Positions 3,292 through 34,318 of a DNA stretch of 64,000 nucleotides are shown piece by piece. The translations under genes and the position numbers were made by a program. The notes under the pieces were generated by a model. The model was given only the letters and a program-made list of their open reading frames with translations, ran no database searches and was not told where the DNA came from. Source of the DNA: Panagrolaimus kolymaensis (Eukaryota > Nematoda > Chromadorea > Rhabditida > Panagrolaimidae); contig JAJQJQ010000048.1 in NCBI GenBank assembly GCA_028622995.1, positions 1,488,001 to 1,552,000 on the forward strand, in the 5' to 3' direction. Each line of letters opens with the position of its first letter. Within the stretch, counting starts at the first letter, position 1.

Positions 3292-4645
3292 ATGAGTTTC
3301 TTTAGTAATACATCCTCAAATACGTTTGCTCGTCCAGCATCATTTTTTAACAATTTATCGAGCGCAGCTTCAACGACATCAACAACTCAATCTGCTACAA
3401 ATGTTAATCCTGCAAATCCTATGAATGCGGTTGAAGTTCCTGGAGCACCAGATGATACTGTACAAGACTTGAAATTTAGTCCTGTTATATCTAATACCCC
3501 TATCTTTCTTGCTGCTGGATCATGGGATAATACTGTAAGAATTTGGCAAGTAAATGAAAATGGAACTGTTGAAGCTAAAGCAATGCAAAATGTTAATTCA
3601 CCTGTTTTATCAATTGATTGGATGGAGGTTAGTATGTACTTTGAATTCATTTCGACTAGAATAATTTTCTTTATTTTAGGATAGTTCAAAAGTTTTTATT
3701 GCTTCTGCTGATAAACAAGCACGTGTATGGGATTTAGCATCGAATCAAGTAGCTGTTATTGGAACACATGATCAACCTATTCGAACTTGTCATTGGATTA
3801 CATCACCCCAATATAGCTGTTTAATGACAGGAAGCTGGGATCAAAGTTTACGATTTTGGGATATGCGTCAACTTCCAACTCAAACATCGCTTGCAACAAT
3901 AAATCTTGGACAAAAAGTTTTTTGTGCTGATGTTGTTTATCCAATGGCTGCTGTGGGATTAGCGAATCGAAAAGTGAAGATTTTTAAACTTGATGGTGAA
4001 CCTAAAGAAGTTACAGAAATAGAAACTCCTTTGAAATTTCAAATGAGATGTTGTGCAATCTTTCGAAATAAAATGACCAATCAACCAACTGGAATTGCTC
4101 AAGGATCAATTGAAGGTCGAGTTGCTATTCAATATGTGGAACCATCATCTTCAAAAGATAATTTTACTTTTAAATGTCATCGTTCACCTGATTTGGTTAA
4201 TGGGTTTCAAGAAATTTATCCTGTACGTTTTTACCTTTTGCTTTTTTGATTTTAAGAAATATTTTTAGGTACATGATGTTGCATTCCATCCTCAACATAA
4301 CACGCTAATTACTGTTGGTGCTGATGGTCGATATTCATTTTGGGACAAAGATGCTCGAACTAAATTGAAAAGCTCTGAACAACATCAAATGCCCATTACA
4401 AAAGCTCATGTTCATGGTTCTGGAAATGTTTTTGCTTATGCTTTAGGTTATGATTGGAGTCGAGTAAGATTTTTCTTCTGTCATAGGGTTTTCTTCATCA
4501 ATGGAAACCCTATGTTTATTGGTAATCGTGTTCATCTTTTTAATGAAATTTTCATTTTTAGGGTCATGAAATGTATCAACAAGGTCAAGGAAGCAAAATT
4601 TTTCTTCTTGCTTGTGCTGAAGATTTAAAACCACGTAAAAAGTAG
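3292..4645 (+). CDS. rae1: mRNA export factor RAE1/Gle2 (WD-repeat nucleoporin)
   Basis: RAE1 is a seven-blade beta-propeller that binds NUP98 at the nuclear pore and acts in mRNA export and mitotic spindle assembly. Four exons (3292-3627, 3680-4222, 4269-4463, 4562-4645) join to 385 aa, close to the usual length of about 370. Seen: a Ser/Thr/Asn-rich N-terminus, then repeated WD-type units such as [33 protein letters not shown], and [11 protein letters not shown]. The block ending [13 protein letters not shown] is typical of RAE1 (GSIEGRVAI). The C-terminus is Lys-rich (PRKK). The ATG directly follows a TTTTAG acceptor-like site (3290-3291), which supports this start and suggests trans-splicing. 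Upstream neighbour is the tyrosine phosphatase on the same strand. No defects seen. Confidence 0.95.
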
Positions 4646-4958
4646 AAATTGAAAATTATTGTACATACTTTCTATTTCCACTTTACTAATTTGTTTGTTA
4701 ACTGATTTTGATTACCATTTTTTTCAATGTTGTACATACTTTTTCTTTATGATCTCTGTTTTATTATTTAGTAAAGTGGACAATAAATTGTTACCTAAAC
4801 AAAAATACTACTTTGTATGATGAAATTTTATTTTAAAATTTTTTTTAATTTAAGAAATTCTTTTCAATATTAACAAAGTTTTATTTATATAAAAACAAAA
4901 TAAAAAATTGTAATTAAAACATGGAAAAAATATTGGAATTTTCTAAACATTTTTTTTC
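4646..4958. other. Convergent 3' intergenic region
   Basis: Lies between the ends of RAE1 (plus) and the broken receptor gene (minus). It is AT-rich, with possible AATAAA polyadenylation signals, and holds no gene that I can see. Confidence 0.4.
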
Positions 4959-5913
4959 CTAAAATATTGTTGTCGGTTCTGTGGTTGATTTTATACTTCT
5001 CTTAAAAAATGTTAAAGAATTTTTATTAAGTTTTTTATTTTTTTGTATTTTGGAATAAATAAATTTAAATAAATCCATTATAGCTTCTCGATATCCCGTC
5101 ATAATAGACAAAATAAAAAAAGCTTCCATTAAAATACGAAATTGCATTATCATTTGACGCGAACTATTTTCAGCTAAACCTGATGGTCCACCCAACCAAA
5201 GAGGAAGTCGAAAATCTAAATATCCTTCATAATCTTCACCTTCGATATAATATCTTGAAGTAATAATTTTTAAACCAAAAGTTGATGCAAGAGAAGTATC
5301 CAATTTATCGATGAATTCAAGAATAAATACAAAAAAATTAATTAAAGTTTGTAAAAAAATAACTAAAGTAATGCGAAAGGAATTTTTAAATTTTTTTCGA
5401 TTATTTTTCATTTGAAATTTGGCTTGTTTTCCTATTCGATAAATTAGCATAATAGTAGAAAATATGGAAAAAAATAAAAATATTAGTGGCTTTGCTATAG
5501 CAATTTTAATAAATATTCTATATAAAGTATTATATAAATTATATAAAAAATCATCATCTAACTTTTTTCTGAATATAGGATTAAAAGGATATTCGTTTAT
5601 TCCACATAAATACCCTTCTCGCTTATTTCTTAATAATACAAAAAATATATAACTTTCAAGAAACATAATAAATAAATTAAAAATAAAAATTGTAAAAAAA
5701 ATTCTTTTGCCTTTAGTAAATTTATCATAAATATTTGTATAATATAAAGCCATAAATCTCGAAAATGAAAGAAGAAATAAAGCGTTATAGAAATCATTAT
5801 CAATCCAACTTCCAATAAATACATTAAAATATTGCCAATCAGCTTCGTTAAAGTTAGATATTTTATAATAATAAAAACATGTTGTTTTTCCTGGATTTAC
5901 ATAACCTTTTATA
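4959..5913 (-). pseudogene. Seven-transmembrane receptor, 3' part (gene split by mobile element)
   Basis: C-terminal three quarters of a nematode serpentine receptor. The frame from 5907 down to 4959 encodes several hydrophobic helices separated by basic loops, for example LFLLSFSRFMALYY followed by IYDKF (a TM3/intracellular loop 2-like region), and ends with a Lys/Ser/Thr-rich tail. The open frame appears to continue into the element (to about 5957) but the residues there are terminal-repeat sequence. The matching 5' part is at 14233-14507. Joining the two across one copy of the 6-bp target duplication gives one uninterrupted 407-codon intronless frame, reading GNDIKGYVNPG across the junction. 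The receptor class (srx-like or another chemoreceptor class) is not certain. As it stands the gene should give no full-length receptor. Confidence 0.8.
5908..5913. repeat. Target-site duplication, left copy (TTTATA)
   Basis: TTTATA immediately precedes the left terminus (ACACGTTTTTTGA). The same six bases follow the right terminus at 14233-14238. Removing the element and one copy restores the receptor reading frame, so the duplication is well supported. Confidence 0.88.
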
Positions 5914-6871
5914 ACACGTTTTTTGAAAAAGTGAAGCTTGGTCTGGCACAGGCGCAAAAGATTTCTTTTTCTGTTTACGAAACTTCATCCCTAGGGTCAA
6001 TTTGGGCCAAAAATCACGAATTTCAACTCCATTTGGCCGGATGATATGTTTAATATGGAGATATGGTCACTTTCGCGTTAGGACCCGAAATAATTTTTTA
6101 AGACCAATATATAAAAAAATTTCTTCTATTATCGTTTTTTCCACATAAAATTGAGTATTTTTCATATTGATGACAAAAATTGGTATCCATATAAATCCCT
6201 CTATTCGGTTACATTGAAGTTAAAAATATGTAAAAATTTACATAAATCCTCATTTATCTCAAAACATTTGTATCGCAGGGGAAGAAACAGCCCACATATT
6301 CGGATTCTCCATGAAATTTTACTCCTAGCGGTGAAGGAATAGTCAAAAATAGTTTTACCTCCGAAATTCATTTGACTCGTTAAAGGTGCATAACCTTGAT
6401 ACACAAAATATCAAACTTTATTAAGGTCATAAAGGAATATATCAAAATAAATTATTTTTGACCAAAATGGAGTCAAAAACAATTAAGATGGACAAAAAAC
6501 ACATTTTTGGCAACAATACATTATGCATTTGGGCTTCTGGAGGTATGACTACATGTCAGCCATTAATGGTATTTCGGGTGTATTTGGTGACCAAAAGATA
6601 AAAATTTAAAATTATTTATTTATTTCAACTTAAAACCATTTTACTTTATGTTTTTGATGTCGCTGATCACGAATTTGAAGTTAGTTTTAGTGATTGAGTC
6701 AATAATAAAAAAGTTATAGCGACGCTCAAATATTAAAATTTCCTTAAAAAATCTATTTTTTATTTTTTATTTTTATCCTTTTGATTTAAAAATGGTAACG
6801 TCTTTTTATTTATTCCTTTTTTATTTAATAATTTTATTATTTCTTAAAAATAATAATGCAAATTTTCTTTT
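5914..6871 (+). repeat. Left terminal inverted repeat
   Basis: About 958 bp, matching the reverse complement of 13266-14232. Differences seen are a few substitutions in the outermost 40 bp and a 9-bp length change next to a GAAGCTT site (the right copy repeats AGCTT). The rest, compared stretch by stretch, looked identical. Homology stops abruptly at 6871/6872. It contains the motif TCGCTGATCACGAATTTGA at about 6660-6678, also found in two palindromic elements in this window. Short open frames inside it are mirrored in the other arm and are not genes. Confidence 0.9.
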
Positions 6872-6989
6872 AATTTTTAAATTTTTATTTATTATAAATG
6901 TACAAATATAACAAATAGTCATAACAATTTTTTGAAAAAAATAAATTATTTAAAGTTCTACTTTTGCTTTTGCTGGAAGTTGGCTCAAC

Positions 6990-9900
6990 TTATTCTTCTT
7001 CACTTTCATAAAGATCATGAACATCATCATTATCAACATATTCACCTTCGCTATTTTTATCCGGAACTGCAGTATTGCCTTCTCTTACACATTCATAAAT
7101 TTCATCGAATTCGTCAGAAGCTAGAGGTTCATCTTCGAATTCCACTTCAATGTCACCTGAAAGAAAAAAATATTTTTGCGCAATATGTATTTTTTAATTT
7201 TACCTGTTGCTTGATTTATTTCCTCAACAACTTCTTCAGATTCCTCTTCATTTTCCACTTCCGCAAGAAATTCACCTCCTCTTTCTCTTATTTTTTTTAT
7301 TTTTCTTCCAAAGTAGGACATAATTTGGGCGGCATTAAGTCGCTCATCGGGTTTAAATAATTTATTTCCATCTGGTTTTAGTTCTTCTCGCATAAGATTT
7401 TCAACGACTTTTGGGTCTATTCTTCTTTGGCCATTTTGATATTTTTTAAGTTGTTTGTCCAAGAAATGTAGTTGCTCTGAAGTAAATCTGACATTTTTTC
7501 TTGGCTTTGTCAGCGCCCATCCTAAAGGTAAAACTTTATCAACTGTTTCTTCTCCAGCTGTATGCAGTGCTTCAGCAACTTCAGGAGTGTAATGTTCATC
7601 GCAAATATTTTCAAGCTGATCCACAAAGGCATTGAGGGCATATTCATATTGAGTAATTTTTTCTGGAACTTTATCATGGACACCATTTATTAAGTGTCGG
7701 AAGAGATTTCCCAATTTAGCATATTCGGCTCGACAAGTTGGTTCAGGGCAAGAATACAAGGCATGTGGATTAAAAGGCACATCCTCTTCTGGGTTATTGT
7801 TGTTGGTATTTGCTTCTTCTTCTTGAACATCAGCATTTGAAGATGCTTCATCATTTGACAATTCATTTGTAATAGAATTAGTGTCGCGCCAAAACTTGTA
7901 ATTCAAATCATCTGGGGAATGATGGGTTTCTTTTTCGATAACAAGCTTAGATTCCAAAATAAAATCTTTAAATTTTGAAAGTTGATGTTTTTTTCCTTGA
8001 CCAATTCCATGATGCCGCCATACTGTGAAACTGCTATCAGAATTGTAAACAAAATCAGATAACAAAGAAATTTCTTGAATGTTTGCTTTGCGAACAGCTT
8101 TTCCTTTGTCAATTTTAGCAATGACAATTGAAAGGGAAGTAAGAGGTTTAGTGCCATATTGCATGGCATCATACATTTCAGCAGCGGTGGTAACATCAAA
8201 ACCATAATCAAGGGCATCTTGAATTCGTCTTTTTAGCCTTGAACCTTCTTGATCAGCTGCTCCTTTTCCAGATTGTGATTCACTGAAGGAATAGCGTCTA
8301 ATTGGTATGCCAATATCTTTGCTTAATTGAGGTAGGCTAACAATAACTTGGGCGCTATGATAATAACCTTAAATATTTTGTAAAGTTTCATTCATTTTTA
8401 ATTAAAAACTTACCGGCTTGATCCGAACGAAGAGTAACACCTTTAAGGTTCCAAGATTTTGCTTTTTCCAAAAGATCTCTAATAATTGCAACAACCGCAA
8501 CACCGTCCTTTAAAAAAATATGTCTTTAAAAGTTCAAATAAATAAAAAGAAAACTAACTTGGTCTTCAAAATTTAATAAATGTACTAATGAATGGACTTT
8601 TAATTGACCATTGATGCGGGCTTGTATATGGCTAATGTGCCAGGAAAGTCCTTTCTTACTATAAAAATCGCGCTGCGTTTCTGTGTGTTTTTGGGGAAGA
8701 TATTTCATTGAATAATCAAGAATAATGATAGCTTCTCCTTCTGGCAAATTTTCAACAATTTGCTTTCTTTCTCTTTCGCTGTAAATTGCTCTTAGCAAAT
8801 GGCTTTTCATTTCTTCGATTTTTGCTTCATAAATGTCTAGTTCATCTAACATTTCTTCCAATTCTCCTTTCAATTTTTTATTTTTTCTGGAATTTTGAAT
8901 TGACGTTTTCAATTCCTCTCGAAAATCACCCATTACTTCATCAAAAAGTCGAACACGTTCAAGGCGAAGATTATGTTCATGGTTATTCGGTGGTTCAAGG
9001 TTTGTACAACTAGGAGCTTGAAATTCTCTACGGGTTGGATCCGACAATGCGTGAGTCATACAATAATCTGCGATTCTAGAACACATTTTGACATGGACAT
9101 TGAAATCGGTTTTCAAAAATTGTTGAGATTCTCGAAGTCGACGTTTCAAACTTTTTGACCATTCACTTTCAATCAAATCTTTTTTGTACATGTTGTCAAC
9201 GATTTCTTCCAATTTTTCAAAAGCCTAGAAAATACAATTTTTACATTTTCTAAATGACTAAAACTAACTTCATCTCCTGCAGCAATTTTGTAATCAACAC
9301 AGTGTAGGGATTTTTTTCTTTTTGCTGCACAAACTTTTAAAATTTTTCGCATCACTTAATGTGACATTTTGATATCTGTTCGGCCTGTTTGTATTTTAAA
9401 TTCTTCAAACATATTAATTGTTTCCGTGTCACGGGTCATTCTCATTGAAGGAGGAATAGTATATTTTGTTCCATCATGGAGCTTCGTTTTTTGAGTTCCA
9501 TATGGAAGCATTTTAGAGATTGCGGGACTAAAAAATAAACATACAAATAATTTTATCATTGAAAAAGCATCATTACCTTGTTATGAATTCAATAAAATAA
9601 GTGATATCAGGTTTGTTGTAGCGCACAACAACATTTTTGCGAGGTTCTTCCCTCAAATTGTTGAGGCGTCTCAGTGCTAATGATCTTGCAGCTAAAAAAG
9701 CTCGATTTGATAATCTTGGGAAATGTTCCAATATGTCGGGGTAAGTGAAACCAGAAGCAATTTGAGCCAACGCTTCTTTCCTTTCATTATTTGATTTTGC
9801 ATTTCTATATTGAGCTTTTGCAACTTCAAAAATAATATCAATGCTTTTTGCTGTTTTTTTATTAAGGTCTGCTTTTTCACGATTATTTGCTAAACAAAGT

Positions 9901-11916
9901 AGTTGGTCAGCTGCGCCGGGTGCCATGAATTCAGCAATTACTCGATTAAGTTGATGAAAAGCCACAACTTTTTTTCTCTGAGTATCGGGTTGCCATTCAT
10001 CAAATGCCTGATTTGGGTTTATACGTGAAATACCTAAAAAAAATTCATTTTTACAAATAAAAATGAATTCAGCTTTACCTGCTTTTTTTGCAACATCCTT
10101 GATTACTTCTATTATTTCTGGGGAAAGAGTTGGAGCTGGTGGATTCAAATGAACTCGAGATTCACGATTACGGAAATCTGGATCTTGAGGATCATTATCA
10201 GATGAGCTTGAAGAACTTGTGGCACCTGGAATTGACCGAGGTGGAGTTTTACCATTAATAAAAGCGTCAGGATCTTCTTGAGAATTATCAGAATTATGTG
10301 TGGGTGAATTTCCAAAATCATTATCAAATGGGGTTATCGAATATCCTTGCTTTTCTACAATTTGTTGGGCAACGAGTCTTTTTAGATATTCAGCATGTTG
10401 AGGGCAAACCGCTAAAAAAATATGTAAAAATGCTTTGAAATTTTTAGAACTTACGTATTCCAATATGTATCAAGACATGATGTTTTTCAAAAAATGCTTT
10501 TGCTTCTGAATAAGTTACCTTGTGAAAACTTTTTGTGGCGAATGGACGAGGTTTATCGGTATGATCATGATCCGTATATCCATCTGGCATTGAACAAACT
10601 TGTCTATTTTCACCATTAACTCTCCGATACATTATATGATTATATCTCCTATTTGACCAAAGAGTGCTAAGCTCTTTTCTGATATTTTCACATATTTTTC
10701 TTTTACCAATTTTTTTTCTAAATTCCTCGTTTTCCCAATCATCATAAAATTCTGCTGCACCTCTTGCAAGAATTAGTTGAGCTTCATTGATCGTGCCATA
10801 GAGATCTTGCTCATTATTCATCAATTCATTGAAACTAAAACAACAAAATAATTATATTTATCTTTGCATTAATATTTTCACCTTATAAGCTTCCCATTTT
10901 CAGGGCAAATTGTAGAAACTTTGGACTGGGCTGGTCTTTTTTCCATTTCGTCTGCAGGGATTCTTTCACGAGAAAAATAACATTCATGGTCTTCATCTTC
11001 GTCATCATTATCTTTAACATTTTGTGTAGGCAAAGTTAATCTGTCAGCAATTATATTTCCATCACAAATGTTTTCTTTTCCAGGGGTTGGGGTTGATAAT
11101 ACTAATGAATTTTCACATAAATTAATACTTAAAGTCTTTTCTGATCGAATATCATATTCAATAATTGGTTTGTTCATTTTTTTGGTTAATTGAGAAACGA
11201 AATCAATTGATTGAATTTCTTCATGGTTGCCAACAAAAATAAATCCATCGGTTACTGTTTCCAAAATAAAGTCAATCAATTCAGCTTCATCCAAGTATGC
11301 AACAGCTTTGTTTTTGATTAACGCTCCTCTTGATGCTTTGTAAGCGTATGACAATTGTTTTAAAATCTCTTCTACTTTTTCTTTGGATAATGCAGACTTA
11401 TCCGTTTTCAATAACAAAATAGCAAAATTTTTGGACAATGGACCGGAAGCTTCATTTTTCATTCTTTTTTTGTAATAACTTTCTTCAATCCAATTAAATT
11501 CAGAAGTGAGGATATCTGTTACAAAATTGAAAGCATTATTTTTGTTTGGAATTCCAATCGTAAAATATTCATTGAATCCATTTAAAGATATCATAAGCTT
11601 TTGGTTTTCCAGGGTTACATATTGAAGAACGGCGGGGATTTGAGATTTCTTATGATGAGGTAAATTCAATTGGATGTTTAGCAAAACATATGGCGATAAA
11701 ATTGGGGGATTGTCGCAATCTTCTGCTTTGAGTTCAATAAAATCATTTGAATGGCTGCTATCAAAATGAAAAATATTTGTTTGAATTTCATTTAATAATA
11801 ACCTAAAGTTGATAACAATATTAAATTAGATTTTGAAAAAGCTTCACTCACTTGCAGCTGCTAACATAATTGAATAGAAATAAACCCATGATGAAACGAA
11901 ACCAAAAGACATTCAT
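6990..11916 (-). pseudogene. DDE-transposase-like protein of the element, one in-frame stop
   Basis: Ten exons join in phase (11916-11852, 11802-10882, 10834-10455, 10411-10079, 10033-9577, 9527-9269, 9224-8559, 8507-8414, 8367-7204, 7156-6990), about 1501 codons. Candidate catalytic acidic residues: Asp in ILDYSMKY (~975), Asp in RSDQAGYYHS (~1056), and Asp/Glu in GKGAADQE (~1097-1099), spacing like an RNase H-fold integrase. A C2H2-like finger (CPEPTC...H...H, ~1265-1290) and a C-terminal block (RIDPKVVENLMREE, QIMSYFGRKI) follow. From memory, this order matches a widespread family of uncharacterised animal transposon proteins. Codon ~776 (9356-9358) is TAA inside a block that is otherwise conserved-looking (MSH-stop-VMRKILKVC), and no splice can bypass it plausibly. 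Exon 1 encodes a signal-peptide-like N-terminus, odd for a nuclear enzyme; the true start may be later. Confidence 0.8.
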
Positions 11917-12417
11917 CTTGAAATAAAGTAAATACGCGTATTTGATATCAAGGTTTTTGTAATAAATGCTTTACAAAAACAAACAAATAATTTAGATAAA
12001 AAAATAAATAAAATTCTTCGAAGTGAATGAATGATAAATTGATGGTTGACTAAATCTTTAAAAAAATTTATAGTAATAAAAAAGAAATATTTTGTTTACT
12101 CCTAAGATCGTTTATTCTAGTTCAAAAAATGGATAAAAGTCTGCTTGGAGGAATTTTTTTCACTTTAGTTTTTTTTCCAATCAAAGGAAAGGAAAGCTGG
12201 CAAAAGACTTCATTCACAAATTATCAAATCATTTTGGAGTGTGAGAAGCAATAAAAATGAAAACAAATATTTATGTACAAACTACAAAACAAAAAAAAAC
12301 TACTACTAACAAAATTTTACAAAAACAATACAAAAATGAAAAATTTACAATATAAATGAAAAGTGAGAAAGAAAAAAACAAATAAGTGAAGTACCAGAAA
12401 CGCGATTTAGTTGCTTT

Positions 12418-12886
12418 TCAAGGCTTAGCATTTTCACGAAGTTCATCAAAGATCTTCTTAACATTATGCCGAACATCGAGAGCAACTTCCTTCCGTTCCA
12501 AATAGCCATCCACAACCGACGCAAAAATACTAATGCCATGTTCAATATAAGGAATGTTGTCGAGCTAAAAAGTAAAATATAGTAAGTTTCGTAGTTATAT
12601 AATTAAAAAGCTAGCCTACTTGTGAATGGCCACCGACACGGAAGGTATTGCTCATCTTTACCGCTTTTCTCCATTTGACGAAAAGAACAATAATGATGAA
12701 AGACAAAATGGCGATAATTGAGATGAAAAATGCATAAAGCTTTAGATCTTGGCAATCGTTGAGTTCTCCAAAATAATCAACAAAAAAATCTTTCTGACCA
12801 TCCTTCCAATTTGCGGTGTATTCTTTGACGAGGGCAGTTGAAGCAGCAGATGAACAGCTTTTGAAGACAGTAGGTGTAATAGACAT
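12418..12886 (-). CDS. Small single-pass membrane protein carried by the element
   Basis: Two exons (12886-12620 and 12564-12418; donor GTAGGC, acceptor TTTTTAG) give 137 aa. Residues 1-50 hold Cys 11 and Cys 45 and no obvious signal peptide; residues ~51-70 form one strongly hydrophobic helix (FFISIIAILSFIIIVLF) followed by KWRK, so the C-terminal ~65 residues are probably cytoplasmic. The second exon is a charged, helical-looking segment (VALDVRHNVKKIFDELRENA). Base composition is less AT-rich than the flanks, as in the neighbouring transposase-like gene, and codon continuity across the intron supports a real gene. It lies between the transposase-like gene and the right TIR, in the same orientation. 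I do not recognise the family; it could be an element-specific accessory gene or a captured host gene. Confidence 0.7.
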
Positions 12887-13265
12887 TTTTTTGGTGAAGA
12901 TTATAAAAATAATGATGGGGAATTGGGGATTCTGCGAGTATTTATACTCGAAAAAAGATTTAAAAAAACGGGGCTTTTAACACCTTAATTTGCAAATGAA
13001 AGTTTGTTCACACCATAAAAAAGAAATGACCGCTGCTAGAAAAAGGGTAAAAAATAAAATGCATCGTTGTTTGACCAAAAATAATCCCGCGTTTTGCGCC
13101 AAAAGATAGTTTTTTTGATATCATTTTTATTTTCACTGCCAAATAAAGGTAAATTTTAATAAAAGAAAAAATAAAATAACTCCTTTCTTATTTCACAAAA
13201 TTTCTAAATATCCAAAGCAAAAATAAAATCGCAGAAGAAATTGAAAAATTTGTGCAAATAAAATA

Positions 13266-14232
13266 AAAAGAAAATTTGCATTATTATTTTTAAGAAATAA
13301 TAAAATTATTAAATAAAAAAGGAATAAATAAAAAGACGTTACCATTTTTAAATCAAAAGGATAAAAATAAAAAATAAAAAATAGATTTTTTAAGGAAATT
13401 TTAATATTTGAGCGTCGCTATAACTTTTTTATTATTGACTCAATCACTAAAACTAACTTCAAATTCGTGATCAGCGACATCAAAAACATAAAGTAAAATG
13501 GTTTTAAGTTGAAATAAATAAATAATTTTAAATTTTTATCTTTTGGTCACCAAATACACCCGAAATACCATTAATGGCTGACATGTAGTCATACCTCCAG
13601 AAGCCCAAATGCATAATGTATTGTTGCCAAAAATGTGTTTTTTGTCCATCTTAATTGTTTTTGACTCCATTTTGGTCAAAAATAATTTATTTTGATATAT
13701 TCCTTTATGACCTTAATAAAGTTTGATATTTTGTGTATCAAGGTTATGCACCTTTAACGAGTCAAATGAATTTCGGAGGTAAAACTATTTTTGACTATTC
13801 CTTCACCGCTAGGAGTAAAATTTCATGGAGAATCCGAATATGTGGGCTGTTTCTTCCCCTGCGATACAAATGTTTTGAGATAAATGAGGATTTATGTAAA
13901 TTTTTACATATTTTTAACTTCAATGTAACCGAATAGAGGGATTTATATGGATACCAATTTTTGTCATCAATATGAAAAATACTCAATTTTATGTGGAAAA
14001 AACGATAATAGAAGAAATTTTTTTATATATTGGTCTTAAAAAATTATTTCGGGTCCTAACGCGAAAGTGACCATATCTCCATATTAAACATATCATCCGG
14101 CCAAATGGAGTTGAAATTCGTGATTTTTGGCCCAAATTGACCCTAGGGATGAAGTTTCGTAAACAGAAAAAGAAATCTTTTGCGCCTGTGCCAGATCAAG
14201 CTCAAAAAGCTTCACTTTCTCAAAAAATGTGT
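13266..14232 (-). repeat. Right terminal inverted repeat
   Basis: About 967 bp, reverse complement of 5914-6871. Outer end reads TGTGT against the TTTATA target copy. It contains a 9-bp insertion relative to the left arm near 14200 (CAAGCTCAAAAAGCTTC). Confidence 0.9.
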
Positions 14233-14238
14233 TTTATA
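14233..14238. repeat. Target-site duplication, right copy (TTTATA)
   Basis: Directly follows the right TIR terminus and matches 5908-5913. Confidence 0.88.
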
Positions 14239-14507
14239 TCATTTCCACATGAATATGCTTCACACGCAATTAAATCCCATATAGCTTGATTAAGAATAAA
14301 CCATTTATAATTACCATTAATTCTTCCAAAAATTGATATCAAAATTATAATGCCAATAAAAATCATGCAAAAATATCCGAAATTATAATAAAATAAAGTT
14401 GCCGCAAATTGCATTAAAAAACAACGAAATTCATCGATATTTGTTATGATTCCGTTATGCACCTTACAATCAAAGATTGTTGTTGCAGTATTAGTTGTTG
14501 CATTCAT
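14233..14507 (-). pseudogene. Seven-transmembrane receptor, 5' part (gene split by mobile element)
   Basis: Start ATG at 14507. Encodes an extracellular N-terminus with N-glycosylation-like Asn sites and two Cys, a first membrane helix (FCMIFIGIIILISIFG), and the start of a second (WFILNQAIWDLIACEAYSCG). The frame then runs into the element's terminal repeat and stops after a few foreign residues (KHIF). The remainder of the gene is at 4959-5907. The six bases 14233-14238 are the right target-site copy. Confidence 0.8.
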
Positions 14508-15305
14508 TTTTTACGACGGTTTTACTACTTTTTTTTAAAGTTAAAAGTAAAAGAAACTTACTTTATATAATCCACTTTTTTAAATAAACTTTGCTTTTTT
14601 TTTTTTTAATCCGCCGCCTCTTTTTTTTTCTTAATATTGTATTTTCTCTTAACCGCTTATTAAAGTTTACTTTATTTTACAATATAAAACATGTTATCAA
14701 AATAATTAAGTGTTAACATGGCCTTATTCCTTGCCCACATTGTATGTATTATTTAGTTTTTAATTTGGTATTAACAAATTTTGTACTTTATACTTTTTAA
14801 CAAAATAATAGTGGGTTGTTTTATAAAAAAATCAATGAATGACAGTAAGCAATTTTCTCCAACAATTTTTTTCTTCCCAAAAACAATAGCAAACTCTTGA
14901 ATCAAAAAGAAAGAGGATTTGTAAAAACAAAAAACAAAAAATGTAATTGATTGATTTTTTGGTATTGCTGGCTTTTTGTTTCCATTTTCATTAATATTTC
15001 TTGACTTTAGATTTTCTCTTTTTATTAGTTCGATTGGTTTTTGCACAGTCAAGTTTGTCATAAAAATGGTTTATCCAAAATACCCTCCAAAACACTTAAT
15101 CCAAAATGATGCCATTTACCTTGAAGGTTGAACCCTTCGGGATAAGAATAAGCAAAACTCAAAAACACTTAAAATTTTATTTGATTTTTTGTTTGAATAC
15201 TTTGGCTATAATTATTGGAGTATTGAATTTTTAGCCAGAGAAAACGGCATTCTAAAATATTCTTTATTCAAACAATTTGTCTCTAGTTAAAAGTCGCATG
15301 CTATT
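14508..15305. other. Intergenic, promoter side of receptor and F-box-like gene
   Basis: The two flanking genes diverge from this stretch, so it should hold both promoters. Poly-T/poly-A runs dominate; no exon or RNA gene was recognised. Confidence 0.4.
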
Positions 15306-16208
15306 ATGGGATTGACGAGTAAAATCGAAATTTCTGAAAATGAAGAAGAAATAGAAAATTATGGATCTTCATATGCTTTTAATCCAAACTTTGATCGTTC
15401 AAATACCGATACTTTTGATTTGCCTCAACATCAAACATTTTCTTTTCCATCCACTTTGATTCATTATATTTCTATAAATCCAAAATCAGCGAAAGGATTT
15501 TCAAAAATTCAAAAAACTTGCAAATATTTTTTTGCTAAAAATAAAATCATCGTTGTTAAAAATGGTGTTACAGCTGAAGGAGATTTTCTCACATGCTATG
15601 GAATATCTTTTGAACTTTTGGATGGGTTTAAATATTGGTTAACTAATTCCATCAATGGTTATGGTGATGGAAATATTATGAAATATATTTATCGATGCAC
15701 TTTCAATACATTTTTATATCGTAACCAAGATTTTACTTTGAATGAATTTAATTTACTTTTGGGTGATGGAAAGATTCGTCAAATTGAATTATCTAATGTC
15801 AATATTTATGATTCTAATGGCGCTTTAGTTACCATCGATAAAATCCTTGAAAAAGTTCCATTTGTTAAAGAATTTAAATATGAATGCGAAAATGAAATTT
15901 TCAATACAAAAACCTTCGAAAACTTGTGTTCTTTGAAGTTCAATTCAAAGCTCCAAGAAATCAAACTCGGAATTTCCAAAATTTCAAATGAAGCAGACTT
16001 TTCATTTTTATGCAAATTTTTCCAAAACAATGCTGCAAATACGTTTGCTTTCCGAATTTCGTTTTACACTGCAGAAAACAAATCAAAATATTTGAAAGAT
16101 ATGAAAAAAGAAATTTTAACTTGGATCAATAAAGATAAACTTTCTGTATTAATCCACAATGAATCAATTGACATTTATAAAGGAAAAAGATTTGGCCATT
16201 TTTTATAA
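15306..16208 (+). CDS. F-box-like protein, nematode-expanded family, copy 1
   Basis: Single-exon frame of 300 aa. Residues ~50-80 (FPSTLIHYISINPKSAKGFSKIQKTCKYFF) resemble a divergent F-box: a proline-led helix, a middle segment and a QTCKYFF block in place of the usual CKxF. The rest has alternating hydrophobic/acidic strands (LSNVNIYDSNGALVTIDKILEKVPFVKEFKY) shared with the copies at 30997-31818, 33458-34318 and the C-terminal half of 28305-30205. F-box proteins recruit substrates to SCF ubiquitin ligases; that role is inferred here only from the weak F-box resemblance. The N-terminus is acidic and longer than in the other copies. No signal peptide. The ATG chosen is the first in the open frame. 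Confidence 0.75.
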   Translation: MGLTSKIEISENEEEIENYGSSYAFNPNFDRSNTDTFDLPQHQTFSFPSTLIHYISINPKSAKGFSKIQKTCKYFFAKNKIIVVKNGVTAEGDFLTCYGISFELLDGFKYWLTNSINGYGDGNIMKYIYRCTFNTFLYRNQDFTLNEFNLLLGDGKIRQIELSNVNIYDSNGALVTIDKILEKVPFVKEFKYECENEIFNTKTFENLCSLKFNSKLQEIKLGISKISNEADFSFLCKFFQNNAANTFAFRISFYTAENKSKYLKDMKKEILTWINKDKLSVLIHNESIDIYKGKRFGHFL

Positions 16209-28304: not shown

Positions 28305-30205
28305 TTATAAAACATAAATATTTACTTCTGGCGTCATTTTCGAAGGTTTCCATTGGTCCAGCATGCTTTTAACTGCGTCTTTTAATATTGGATAAACTAA
28401 GGAACAATCGAAAGTTCTATGAAACCTTAAATTAAATTCTGCTCTTGGAGCTGCATTTTTCTAAAAACATTTTTTAAAAGTTATAAAGAATTAAGTTATT
28501 GACAAACCTTGACAAAATTACAATAATCCATAGGATCGATTAAGTTATTTACATGATGAATATTAAAACCAATCAATTTATTTTTAAGTTTGAGTTTAGA
28601 TAATTCATTATTGGTTGATAAAAAATTGGTTGCATTTGGACCAGGTTTTAAACTGTAAAAAATAAATTATTAAAGCACTTAAATTTCAGAACTAACTAAA
28701 AATCTCGAATTTTTGGAAGCAAATTTAGAACAGTTTCTAATTTGAGAAAATTTTCATCCGAATTATTGATAATGGAAGAATAAACAAAAGCAAAAGATTC
28801 AACATTTCCTCGACCACATAAAAATTTGAAATCATTTTCATTAATAATTTGATTGTATATATATATATACTTAGCATCACATTCATAAACATATTCGCTA
28901 AGGAGCTTGTTGAAATCGCTTGAGTTAGCGGATTTAAGCCAAATGAAAGATGTTGTGATAGAAATCTTTTTAGCTTTAAAATGCTTTAATAAAGCTAATG
29001 AATTAGAATTTTGTGTTAAAAGTAATGATTGTTCTTTGATTTTAGAAAACTTGTGTACCGCATGATAATAGAAAAATCGATAACAATAAATTTTGGACTT
29101 TTTCAAATAAAAATATTTGCATGTTTGTTGTAATTTTGACATAATTGATGACCTTGCGTTGTCTATCATACATCGAATTAATGGCAATGGTAAATCCCAT
29201 CGTTGACATGGAGTTTGAATATTCACTTTGGCGCATTCAAATAGTGGAATTTGCTTAGTTTCTTCTTTAACTTTTGACATTTTTTGTGAAAATTGTGTGT
29301 TTCTTGATAACATATTTTCAAAGGTGAAAGGATTTTTCCATGGAACAAAAATAGGTCCATATTTTTCCGTTGCATTTTTATATTCATTTTTCATTTCAAA
29401 ATCATCCAAAAAAAATCTACAATATTTTGAATAAACTTGAAGCATTTCTTTTGGATCATTTTCACGAAGGTAAGAAATATAAAGTTTCCATAATTTTTTG
29501 TTATTTAAATTTTGTCCAAGACGCTCTTGAACATTTTGTTTAACAAATTCTGGATCGTTTGCTTCTTTTATATATTCAAGCCATTTTTGGTCATTATTTT
29601 CAGATGCTTTAATTTTCCAATAAAGTTTTTCCATTTTATTAACATGCCCGAAAATTTCTTTAGGAAGTGGGCTAGCTACAAAGTTTTTTATATAAACTTT
29701 TTAAACTTTATTTATAAAGCACTCGCTTACATGAATATTCTTCATGCCACATTAAATGTTGTTGAATTTGGCGATGAGGATACAATAATTTTTGCCAGCT
29801 TTTAATTATAAATGGATCATTTTTTCTGTATAGAGTTTTATCGTGGCCAAATAGAAAGGGATGTAAACCATCTAACATTTTTGGATAAAAATTCTATAAA
29901 ATTAATATTAAAGATGTTATAACATTTAGAAGAAAAAAACATCCAACCTTTATATTATCATTATATATACTATAATAAAAATGATAGACAGCTTCTTTAT
30001 ATATTTCACTAACAGGTTGTAAACAAAACCTTTTATTCCATAATGGTTTAGACATTAAATAATTTTGGCTAAATTCAGAATAAATTTTAACTTTTTCTTT
30101 ATCATTTTTAGCTTTCTTTAATTTAATATGCAAATCATAAATAACCGTAGCATAATTATTATTATTTGATGTTGGAGATATTTTAGCCAATTTTTTCTTA
30201 TCCAT
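28305..30205 (-). CDS. HAT-repeat protein fused to an F-box-like domain
   Basis: Five exons (30205-29948, 29893-29731, 29675-28697, 28652-28508, 28460-28305) join in phase to 566 aa. The N-terminal half has half-a-TPR (HAT)-like units (LWNKRFCLQPVSEIYKEAV; KKLWKLYISYLRENDPKEMLQVYSKYCRFFLDD), the kind found in the splicing factors PRP39 and CLF1. From about residue 290 it changes to the F-box-like family also seen at 15306, 30997 and 33458 (LPLPLIRCMIDNARSSIMSKLQQTCKYFYL). The transition lies inside exon 3, so the fusion does not depend on a doubtful splice. An in-frame ATG further upstream (30301) exists, but the start at 30205 gives a charged, soluble N-terminus and is preferred. No enzyme motif. 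The function is not known; the combination suggests a HAT scaffold placed on a ubiquitin-adaptor-like domain. Confidence 0.7.
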
Positions 30206-30996
30206 TTTACTTTGCCACACAAATGAGCAAAAAATAAAATAACTATGAAGTTCAAAAATACAATTTTTTGAACTCCAAAAAGTGGGGAAAAATGCACACA
30301 AATGATTTTATTGTTTAATTATGGGATGAATAAATATGGATATGGACAGACAAACTATTACTCAAGGGAGAAAATGTAGCCACTTAACATCTTTTTTATT
30401 ATTTGGGTCAGATTAATGATTGTCAGGGTTATTTGTTATTTTGTTGTTTCACTACCAAAAAAGATAAAGCATAAACATCCAAAAATAATGGGGTCAAACA
30501 AAATTATTCCTAACCTTTCAGTTGGTAAATTGATAGCTTGAATGAAGGGAATCTCGTCCACTTTCACATCATTCTCATTACTTTCTTGCAAAAATCATCA
30601 AAAAATACATACATTTTTTAATTTCAATAATTTTTTTGGTAATCATTAAATCTCTAAGAGAGTCTCTAAGGGGCGGGCTTGCATTCAGCTAACATTTAGA
30701 TCACACAAATCTTTCTTCTTTTTCTAATAATTAAAAAAATATTTTTTTGTTTTTTTGAAAGATACAAAAAAAGAAAAATGTAGACTTGGTTTTGTTTTTC
30801 CTTTTTCTTATTTTCCATAAAAGACAAAATGAACAAATGTCATAAACAAATTATCGATTGACTTGGCTCTCTTTATTTTTTGTGGTGCATTCATCACTTT
30901 TGCTTTCGCTTTTTTAGTTAGGTATCAATTTTTTCCATATTCATTTTCTTCACAATTTTTCCTTTTTTTATTTATTTTTTATGATTAAACCAGAAA
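30206..30996. other. Divergent intergenic region
   Basis: Promoter region for the HAT/F-box-like gene (minus) and the F-box-like copy 2 (plus). No exon seen. An acceptor-like CCAG precedes the ATG at 30997 by three bases. Confidence 0.4.
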
Positions 30997-31818
30997 ATGG
31001 ATCCTTCTTCTGGGTTTACTCCTTTAAATCCGAATATTTTTAATACTCTACGCCAACAACATTTTTCCATTCCATTTGTTTTGATTCATTATATTTCGAA
31101 GCATCCATTTTCTACCAAAGAAGGATTATTAAAGCTTCACCAAACTTGTAAATATTTTTTCTCAACAAACCCAATTGTTATTATTGATAAACATGTTCGA
31201 CAAAAAGAAAAGAAATTATTTTGCTATTTTCAACAAAATTTTGTGCAACTCAATATTAAAAAATATCATTTTTGGATCACTGAAGGCTTATCAATTGAAA
31301 ATCCTTTACCAAAAAGAATTTTCAAAATGTTTTATCGATGCAATTTAAAATCATTGTTACTAAGAAATCTCAATATTAGTTTTAAGGAATTTAACTTTCT
31401 TCTAAATGGCAATCAAATGAATGAAGCTACTCTATTGGATGTTAACATTCTGGATGAAACTAATGCTTTCTTGATTTCGTGTGATCAAATTCTTAAAGCT
31501 GTTCCAAAAATAAGATATTTTAATTATTCTTCTAAAAATGAAAGATTTAGCACAAAGAATTTTGAAAAATTTTATTCTTTGGTATTTGAAAATAAATTCA
31601 ATGATTTTAAAATAGCTTTTCAAAAATTGTCAAAAGATATTGATATTATGACTTTATTCAAATTTATCGAAAAAAATTCTACAAAAATTTCTTGCTTTAC
31701 TTTTGAATTTAAAATGGATAATGCTCATTTTTATAAAACAATGTTTCGAACTGCGTTGAATGAAAGTTTTCAAGATGATAGTGTTTTTGCAAAACAGCCT
31801 TATATATTTATTTTATAA
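30997..31818 (+). CDS. F-box-like protein, nematode-expanded family, copy 2
   Basis: Single-exon frame, 273 aa. Begins with NIFNTLRQQHFSIPFVLIHYISKHPF, then the family's HQTCKYFF block at about residue 50-56. The remainder aligns along its length with copy 3 (33458-34318), including IIDKHV, FLLNGNQMNEATLLDVNI and KFIEKNSTK. The DNA identity between copies 2 and 3 is especially high over the first 200 bp, indicating a recent local duplication. The C-terminus ends QPYIFIL. Ubiquitin-ligase adaptor function is only inferred from the F-box resemblance. Confidence 0.78.
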   Translation: MDPSSGFTPLNPNIFNTLRQQHFSIPFVLIHYISKHPFSTKEGLLKLHQTCKYFFSTNPIVIIDKHVRQKEKKLFCYFQQNFVQLNIKKYHFWITEGLSIENPLPKRIFKMFYRCNLKSLLLRNLNISFKEFNFLLNGNQMNEATLLDVNILDETNAFLISCDQILKAVPKIRYFNYSSKNERFSTKNFEKFYSLVFENKFNDFKIAFQKLSKDIDIMTLFKFIEKNSTKISCFTFEFKMDNAHFYKTMFRTALNESFQDDSVFAKQPYIFIL

Positions 31819-33457
31819 ACCCTTCTTGAAAATTTGTATCTTATTTGTGATTTTTTCTTGTATTCTACATTTGATTATAAAGTTTCAATAAAAAATTCCT
31901 TTTTTTTGCAATATAATTCTTCTTTCACTTCTCTACTTGTCGCTGTGCGGTCAAAATGAAAAAACCCTTTTACGCATTTCTTTCCGAGAAAAATGAATAT
32001 TTTTAATGTTCATTTTTTAAAATAATGAAACGAATTAAAAAAATGTTTTGGAAATTTTTTCGATTTGAAGTTTGAATTTTTCATTTTTATTTTTTTATTT
32101 TTAAATAATAATTTAAAAAAAGAGTTTTGTGAAGGTTTTTATGGAAGTTCCAAGTAAACCTTCACAAAACACGTAAAAAAATAAGCTCATTCAATTGCTT
32201 TGTTATTTTTCTTTTTTTGGCAAAAAGCCAAGATGATTCATATTTACCGCATTTATTACATAATATACAAATAAATGAATCCGGAGGATATTTTATCCAA
32301 CAATTTATTAAAAAAATTCTAGAAGTGATAAATAAAAAGAATCGCTGTTGAAGAAAAGAAAAAAATGAAATTATTTCTTTTAAAAAGAATTTTGTTTACA
32401 AAAAAAGATTGATTTTATCAATTCATCCTTTCTTCACAAATACATAAATTGATTTATTTTGGACGATTTTTACTTAAATATGCTTTTTTCCGAAATAACT
32501 GAATATTATGTTTCTCTTAATAAAATTGATTTTTCTGCATTTCAGAAATTATTGAAGTTATCGTCGCGGATAATTGTGTTCAACTTGATCAAACATGGAT
32601 TTCCCTGATTTCATCGCATTCAAAAGTACACCATGGGAAAAAATGACCATCAACTGTCACAAAAAAAGAAAAGAAGAAAAAATCAATTAAAAGTCATTTA
32701 GTTTCTGAAGTACTTGGAGCCCTTTCAAGTTTAAAAACATTTTAATGAAAATGTGTGATTTTTTTTTTCAAACCGAATGATTTATATTTTAAACAATAAA
32801 GATTTTTTTGCTAGTTTGTGTCTTTTTTGCTGCATGGAAAAAATCTTTTTTGATCCAAGCATAAACGTAAAAAAAAATTAAACGGTAACATTTATGATAA
32901 AAATGTAATCAAGCCTTTCACAAATCTGGGTGTCTTACAAGCCATTTTCTTAATTTCTTTTTAAGCTAAACATAGTGATACTGTATTTTTTTGTTGCGTA
33001 AACAAGAAGAAAAAAGAATAAAGGAAATTTTTTCAAATTTAAAAATCAATTCTTTAAAGTTTTGTCTTTCCATCATTCCAAATAAATTACTTATTTGTTT
33101 AAAAAATATTAGAAGCAGATTCGACGCGTCTTCCAAATAGTTCGTTTTATTTTATATGCTAAAAATAAGTTTCTTCAATTCACTAAATTTTCACTTACAG
33201 ATTTGATCGCGTGTTTTCTTTTAATATTTTTGATTGATTTTATTTTTGGGGAGTTGCCATGGCTAAAAACAAACCTGCGCGTATCTTGAGGACGCCTCGT
33301 TTTGACCTAGAAAGAGAAAGACAAAAACAAATTGAAATTATTGATTCCTTCCAAGAAACTTTTTTTCTTTTTTTTGTGAGCTTTGACATATTTTTCTAAT
33401 TATTCGAGACTTCCTTTTTGTTATTTTGATTCTTTTAATTTTAAATTTTTCCTAAAA
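31819..33457. other. Intergenic, one possible orphan exon
   Basis: AT-rich. At 33259-33355 a frame starting ATGGCTAAAAAC reads MAKNKPARILRTPRFDLERE and further charged residues with codon-like composition, then runs into poly-T. It may be an orphan first exon or a remnant; no partner exon was found before the next gene. Elsewhere nothing was recognised. Confidence 0.35.
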
Positions 33458-34318
33458 ATGAATTATTCTACATCTTTTATCTCAACTTTTCCGAATATTT
33501 TTGATACTCTGCGCCAACAAAATTTTTCAATTCCGTTTGTTTTGATTCATTATATTTCGAAGCATTCATTTTCTACCAAAGAAGGATTATTAAAGCTTCA
33601 CCAAACTTGTAAATATTTTTTCTCAAAAAATCGAATTGTTATTATTGATAAACACGTTTATTTAAAAGAAAAAGGCTTATTTTTTTATTTTCAAAATGAA
33701 TTTTTTCAAATCATAAATAATCAAATTAATTTTCATTTGGTTGATGGACTTACAATTGAAAGGAATGATTCCCTCAAATCTTTCTTCAAAAGCATTTATC
33801 GCTGCTGCTTAAAATCCCTATATATGAAAAATCTTAATTTTACCTTTAAAGAATTAAATTTCCTCTTGAAGGATGGTCAAATAAATGTAATTTCACTCTT
33901 GGACGTAAATATTTATGATGACTTTGGCGAATTAGTTTCATGTAATCAAATTCTGGAAAGAGTTCCAAAACTCTTATATTTTAATTATTATTGCAAAAAA
34001 GAAGTATTTGAAACCGAAAATTTTGTAAAATTTAATTATTTTTCACTTGAGAAAAAATTTATTGATTTCCGAATGGTTTTTTTTGGATTTTCTGATGATA
34101 TTGATTTCAAGCCTTTATGCAAATTTATTGAAAAAAATTCAACAAAAAATTCATTTTTTACTTTTAAAATAAACATGGTTGATGCTGATTTTTATAAAGC
34201 AATGTTCAAACTGCAATTAAGGAAACTTTTCAAGATGAAGATGTTTTTGCAAAAAAGCCATGTATTTCTATTTTATAAACTCTTTTTGAAATTTTTTGTT
34301 TGTTTCTTTTTTCTTTAG
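33458..34318 (+). CDS. F-box-like protein copy 3, frameshifted C-terminus
   Basis: Start ATG at 33458 (MNYSTSFISTFPNIFDTL); an in-frame upstream ATG exists but is not matched in copy 2. Aligns with copy 2 until about 34207, where the DNA lacks one base relative to it: copy 2 reads ATGTTTCGAACTGC, this copy ATGTTCAAACTGC. The frame therefore shifts, replacing the expected ending (stop would be 34276-34278) with a different Lys/Leu/Phe-rich tail that runs to 34318. The F-box-like block (IPFVLIHYISKH, HQTCKYFF) and the body are intact, so it may still work or be an early pseudogene. Confidence 0.7.
   Translation: MNYSTSFISTFPNIFDTLRQQNFSIPFVLIHYISKHSFSTKEGLLKLHQTCKYFFSKNRIVIIDKHVYLKEKGLFFYFQNEFFQIINNQINFHLVDGLTIERNDSLKSFFKSIYRCCLKSLYMKNLNFTFKELNFLLKDGQINVISLLDVNIYDDFGELVSCNQILERVPKLLYFNYYCKKEVFETENFVKFNYFSLEKKFIDFRMVFFGFSDDIDFKPLCKFIEKNSTKNSFFTFKINMVDADFYKAMFKLQLRKLFKMKMFLQKSHVFLFYKLFLKFFVCFFFL

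Follow-up and report, generated by a model that had tools for sequence, protein, structure and literature searches.

The element and its boundaries

The window (the whole stretch of DNA analysed, 64,000 nucleotides from Panagrolaimus kolymaensis contig JAJQJQ010000048.1) contains a DNA transposon that lies within a receptor-like gene and carries two predicted genes, one for a putative transposase (gene 1) and one for a small membrane protein (gene 2). Feature coordinates are collected in Table 1. The transposon is bounded by near-perfect inverted arms, 964 and 973 bp long, which differ by 3 substitutions and a single 9-bp indel and enclose ~6.4 kb. The longest exact inverted match was 943 bp, vs. 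13–20 bp in 20 mononucleotide shuffles of positions 4501–15500. An earlier interpretation made from the letters of the window (the sequence-only reading) had placed the ends at 5914 and 14232, giving 8319 bp; its long inverted repeats were recovered, but its boundaries were not exact to the base, as the repeat extends 1 bp further on each side (A at 5913, T at 14233). Over 943 bp (5935–6877 and 13260–14202) the two arms show 100% identity, whereas identity of the left arm to the arms of other copies is only 67–92%; this suggests arm homogenisation inside a single copy.

Copies were sought in the 265.8-Mb assembly (807 contigs); other loci are given by label and position. A 25-base terminal pattern with ≤2 mismatches gave 123 matches, vs. 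0 in a reversed control, which would amount to some 60 copies if each had both ends. The termini proposed earlier, ACAC(A/G)TTTTTTGA, are therefore common to other copies (some read ACAG), and the different termini that would have told against the proposal were looked for and are not the case. From 32 entries examined for termini, 7 with one end or none (L023, L024, L028, L047, L048, L049, L051) and one duplicate (L050, of L012) were left out. The remaining 24 two-ended copies represent the highest-scoring matches to the arm of the window copy rather than a random sample; 20 measured 1.1–2.5 kb, and the rest 4859, 6279 and twice 8319 bp. A further family copy, C26:3335495-3358257, has an end at each side and appears split within the transposase by ~14.5 kb. 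The part of this insert that was seen holds open frames, one with a DxxSLYP motif, which we take to be DNA-polymerase-B-like, and the insert may be a Maverick/Polinton-like element nested in the transposon.

Table 1. Coordinates of the transposon, its genes and the interrupted gene in the window
Feature	Position	Strand	Basis
DNA transposon, 5'-AACACG...GTGTT-3', 8321 bp	5913..14233	.	terminal inverted repeats; ends set by 24 copies and empty sites
Left terminal inverted repeat	5913..6877	+	arm alignment plus terminal A
Right terminal inverted repeat	13260..14233	-	arm alignment plus terminal T
Target-site duplication TTAT, left copy	5909..5912	+	junction sequence, copy comparison
Target-site duplication TTAT, right copy	14234..14237	+	junction sequence, copy comparison
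Receptor-like gene, 5' part	14234..14507	-	open frame
Receptor-like gene, 3' part, including left duplication copy	4959..5912	-	open frame
Gene 1, putative transposase, 10 exons, 1501 codons + stop	6990..11916	-	introns, frame, homologs; predicted gene model
Gene 1, exons 1–5	11916-11852, 11802-10882, 10834-10455, 10411-10079, 10033-9577	-	
Gene 1, exons 6–10	9527-9269, 9224-8559, 8507-8414, 8367-7204, 7156-6990	-	
Hydrophobic N-terminus encoded by gene 1 exon 1, resembling a signal peptide (putative signal function)	11852..11916	-	recurs in C24 copy
Premature stop, codon 776 of gene 1	9356..9358	-	copy comparison
Putative catalytic Asp 1, codon 975	8715..8717	-	conservation
Putative catalytic Asp 2, codon 1056	8421..8423	-	conservation
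Putative catalytic Asp 3, codon 1097	8252..8254	-	conservation
C2H2 zinc finger of gene 1	7676..7750	-	family profile hits zinc fingers of known structure (best E 0.00026)
Gene 2, 137-codon single-pass membrane protein, exons 12886-12620 + 12564-12418	12418..12886	-	predicted gene model

Target-site duplication, empty sites and a second copy

The sequence TTTATA is present at both window junctions, as had been noted, and had been taken for a 6-bp duplication. Across the two-ended copies, the 6-mers flanking ACAC.../...GTGT were equal in 9 of 24, all of which also fit a 4-bp model, and 15 lacked 6-bp identity. With the extra A (left) and T (right) assigned to the element, the next four bases were equal in 22 of the 24 (TTAA 17, TTAT 4, ATAA 1), the misfits being C47:1176732-1179277 and C44:482400-484945; a 5-bp duplication fitted none. 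Genome-wide, TTAA precedes 50 of 85 exact termini. A second full-length copy, on C30, has unequal flanks (TTTATA on the left, TTTATT on the right), and its empty site on C46, TTTATT, agrees with the 4-bp model and contradicts the 6-bp model. The duplication is 4 bp, TTAT, and TTTATA is TTAT plus one base on either side. That TTTATA is a true 6-bp duplication, as the window junctions and the nine equal copies might suggest, is hardly credible given the other fifteen copies and the C30/C46 pair. The correction matters for classification, as it takes the element out of any 6-bp group.

The flanks of the element are contiguous at two other loci, C7:1267798-1269260 and C1:10042529-10044010, which bears out the claim of a DNA transposon inserted in a gene. 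An empty site with a single TTTATA, as the sequence-only reading expected, was found in C7; C1 reads CTTATA, and TTAT is intact in both. The terms homoeolog and polyploid as used here reflect three-fold similar loci, from which such a history is presumed. The second copy, C30:110438-118756, differs from the window copy at 4 of 8319 positions. Because it sits in different, unrelated flanking DNA and has its own empty homoeolog (C46:1040949-1041355), the two are independent insertions of practically identical sequence. So few differences could also come from an assembly duplication, but the distinct flanks and the separate empty homoeolog of each site make this very improbable. Synonymous divergence (dS) between the homoeologous receptor genes is 0.13–0.15, vs. 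4 differences in 8.3 kb between the copies, so both insertions are far younger than the homoeolog divergence. In Meloidogyne incognita, PMC8288018 attributes almost two-thirds of canonical transposon content, and 94.58% of categorised polymorphic loci, to terminal-inverted-repeat and miniature inverted-repeat elements, and reports PCR confirmation of insertions that lie within genes or potential regulatory regions; to find a transposon inside a nematode gene is thus unsurprising by itself.

The interrupted gene

The two open pieces of the receptor-like gene (275 + 949 nt) join without a frame break into 408 codons, stop included, and on this arithmetic the sequence-only reading was correct. 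Its identification of the product as a chemoreceptor-like seven-transmembrane protein was not confirmed. Neither half gave a Pfam match (E ≤ 1), nor did the 380-aa uninterrupted open reading frame of a homoeolog (E ≤ 10), nematode chemoreceptor models included; the 380-aa protein had no match in the PDB at E ≤ 1, and its hydropathy profile shows 6 membrane-like stretches, two of them overlapping. Relatives of the 3' part gave 54 matching stretches from 40 scored candidates, which points to a large family. The evidence supports no closer description than a gene for a multi-pass membrane protein belonging to a large family.

The ratio of nonsynonymous to synonymous substitution (dN/dS) among the three homoeologous copies was 0.21–0.27, indicating past constraint. 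A stop that aligns with codon 26 interrupts the C7 homoeolog, and a net frameshift affects the 3' part of the C1 homoeolog. On paper all three homoeologs thus appear interrupted, each differently, with the transposon one of several lesions. Neither homoeolog examined (C7, C1) carries the two halves as separate genes, which would have spoken against an insertion. The description of the locus as a clean record of gene inactivation can be kept in part, since the window frame is otherwise uninterrupted and was constrained in the past; neither homoeolog provided an intact copy, and with both homoeologous genes broken as well, the insertion cannot by itself be held responsible for the loss of function. 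The gene may instead already have been decaying or under relaxed constraint, in which case the insertion would have been tolerated without any functional loss. We give this a little under an even chance: the two different disabling changes favour it, but the dN/dS values imply constraint for most of the history of the three copies, the C1 indels could be assembly errors, and the C7 gene could start at a later codon.

Gene 1 and its relatives

All 9 introns of gene 1 are GT-AG and the frame is kept through all exons. The premature stop is found in the window copy only; gene 1 of the C30 copy is open. The part after the stop has homologs, the first four found being at 30–37% identity (~8000 candidates were scored per search). 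Nine of the ten homologs found were from nematodes, and the sources were Panagrolaimus, Caenorhabditis, Pristionchus and the rotifer Rotaria; several carry the database name 'C2H2-type domain-containing protein'. A second set of transposase relatives in the assembly, at ~34–47% identity and some with long open frames, lies at C58:865440-867467, C26:1806959-1809109, C7:671968-673989, C94, C23 and others. Across gene 1 exons 3–9 together, dN/dS between the window element and a related element at C24:3127600-3136600 was ~0.17 (0.078/0.465).

Domain searches gave little. Pfam was run on nine pieces of the locus, those from gene 1 covering exons 2–5, 7 and 9, and returned two matches far under cut-off, both in the exon 9 frame (DUF2805, PNPase); four gene 1 relatives gave sub-cut-off matches only, including zf-C2H2 on P0001 (E 0.0078). 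A phage search with the exon 7 frame returned zero matches. The family profile had 37 matches among PDB sequences, which were zinc-finger proteins or transcription factors plus one 'novel protein'; no transposase was named among the 37 as a match in its own right. The structure model used was built from 12 sequences (mean predicted local distance difference test score, pLDDT, 63.5), an earlier 4-sequence model being poor (49.6). Its core blocks are mostly above 80, falling to 48 near residues 341–350. Foldseek returned many RNase H-like folds (Argonaute, SPARTA, RuvC, RNase HI, terminase, one retroviral integrase, ribosomal uS11-type), mixed with unrelated ones, and none at E ≤ 0.001. The three conserved acidic residues (D80D40D), the predicted RNase H fold and the C2H2 finger together argue for a DDD transposase, and the inverted repeats at both ends, the target-site duplication and the empty sites are those of a DDD/E cut-and-paste transposon.

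Gene 2 and the N-terminal domain

The C24 copy has the same exon 1 with a different sequence. A P. mayeri relative is also hydrophobic at its start, but those examined from C. brenneri, C. remanei and Rotaria are only weakly so or not at all (all as database gene predictions). No homolog was found for the ~270 residues that follow, when the N-terminal 330 residues were compared with 2486 candidates of limited length. Within this genome the domain occurs only at the element-linked loci C30, C47, C26 and C24, plus C13; at C13:2222485-2223406 it is present at 54–65% identity with no transposase match listed there.

Gene 2 adjoins gene 1, and its 137-residue product has one strong membrane span and no Pfam match. 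Outside the two young copies, its only relative in a search of this genome was in the C24 element, where it has the corresponding position and two-exon structure (40 and 39% identity). Between the window and C24 elements, dN/dS was 0.38 for gene 2 (bootstrap 0.16–0.63), a rough value as dS is high (1.34), and 0.28 (0.18–0.41) over 240 N-terminal-domain codons; none of 1000 resamples reached 1 in either case. The ungapped first exon of gene 2 gave 0.37 in frame vs. 0.68 and 1.12 out of frame. These signs of purifying selection suggest that gene 2 and the N-terminal domain do work for the element and are not simply carried along. The dS of the C24 relative is uneven (exons 3–9, 0.46; N-terminal domain, 0.89; gene 2, 1.34), which suggests segment exchange between subfamilies.

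A selected membrane-protein gene within a DNA transposon is, to our knowledge, unusual, and it is directly testable. The more modest reading of the membrane parts is membrane tethering or dosage control. The boldest, which we consider very improbable, is that a conserved membrane module (a cleavable secretory N-terminus with the extra domain, and the gene 2 protein) acts outside the nucleus in the element's life cycle, for example in vesicle packaging or in passage between cells or individuals. If true, this would be a DNA transposon moving towards a virus-like way of life, separately from the Maverick line.

Other features of the window

Families DUF273 and DUF229, which are nematode-typical, are present in the window, and Rfam and tRNA scans of it gave zero matches. 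The single open frame 28696-29700 (-) contains both a weak PRP39-type HAT-repeat match (E 0.0055, under the curated cut-off) and a stretch resembling, by eye, the open frames 15291-16208, 30985-31818 and 33380-34318.

Interpretation

The locus very probably holds a cut-and-paste type transposon of an apparently undescribed TTAA-targeting DDD lineage, inserted in one receptor-like homoeolog very recently on the scale of a seemingly polyploid genome. The gene 1 product would recognise the termini of the ~960-bp inverted arms, 5'-AACAC(A/G)TTTTYTGA, and link these termini to a target (TTAA/TTAT) in which the two strands are cut 4 bases apart, and the 4-bp duplication would arise on repair by the host. 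Excision would be of the cut-and-paste kind, and the small membrane protein may aid the element. No description of the element was found in the literature searched (titles and abstract openings; subscription papers and Repbase entries lay outside its scope). The locus documents very recent insertions in a nematode genome to the exact base and with internal controls, and it exposes a TTAA-targeting transposase lineage with nematode and rotifer relatives, to which Pfam assigned no name and whose members appear in protein databases as hypothetical or 'C2H2-type' proteins. The novelty lies in the lineage, in the accessory membrane protein that it carries and in the precision with which the insertion event is resolved.

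Comparison with known systems

Membership in the Kolobok superfamily would account for several features and is nevertheless unlikely. PMC9587614 describes Kolobok as having a TTAA 4-bp duplication, 5'-RR/YY-3' termini, a DDD/E transposase in which a zinc finger is usual and, in some lineages, an accessory protein such as KolX; the present element shares the TTAA-type duplication, has termini 5'-AA...TT-3', a predicted DDD transposase with a zinc finger, and an accessory gene. The same source gives a C/DxxH motif as common to Kolobok, hAT, P, MuDR and Dada. Of 10 relatives scanned, 7 had both Asp 2 and Asp 3, and C/DxxH was absent between them in all 7, the third Asp being itself a putative assignment; 3 of these relatives do have isolated C/DxxH strings, but downstream of that interval and in unrelated positions. 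The third Asp follows directly after the last core strand in the model, without an inserted domain. The ~960-bp inverted repeats and an accessory gene with no Pfam match or recognisable domain differ as well, Kolobok being compared by description only.

Placement in another named TTAA group, Sola3 or piggyBac, is also doubtful, if slightly less so. Sola3 makes TTAA duplications, and Pfam includes a piggyBac model; no Pfam match above cut-off was obtained for the gene 1 exons scanned or the four relatives, and no piggyBac match even at E ≤ 1 and E ≤ 10, respectively. The termini and size of piggyBac differ from those of this element. Maverick/Polinton, a large element with a 6-bp duplication, was ruled out, as the two genes found are unlike its proteins and the duplication is 4 bp. 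The likeness to piggyBac lies in the TTAA target and duplication (PMC5199201).

The Tm1 Mutator/Foldback elements of root-knot nematodes differ in their 9-bp duplications and MULE/FLYWCH (Phantom-type) transposase, and a Foldback/MULE assignment was ruled out by the 4-bp duplication and the lack of a MULE match; they share with this element composite inverted repeats of variable length, MITE-like derivatives and a nematode host (PMC3169594). The Panagrolaimus, Caenorhabditis, Pristionchus and Rotaria proteins, in which the ~270-residue N-terminal domain was not found, have in common with gene 1 the DDD core and the zinc finger.
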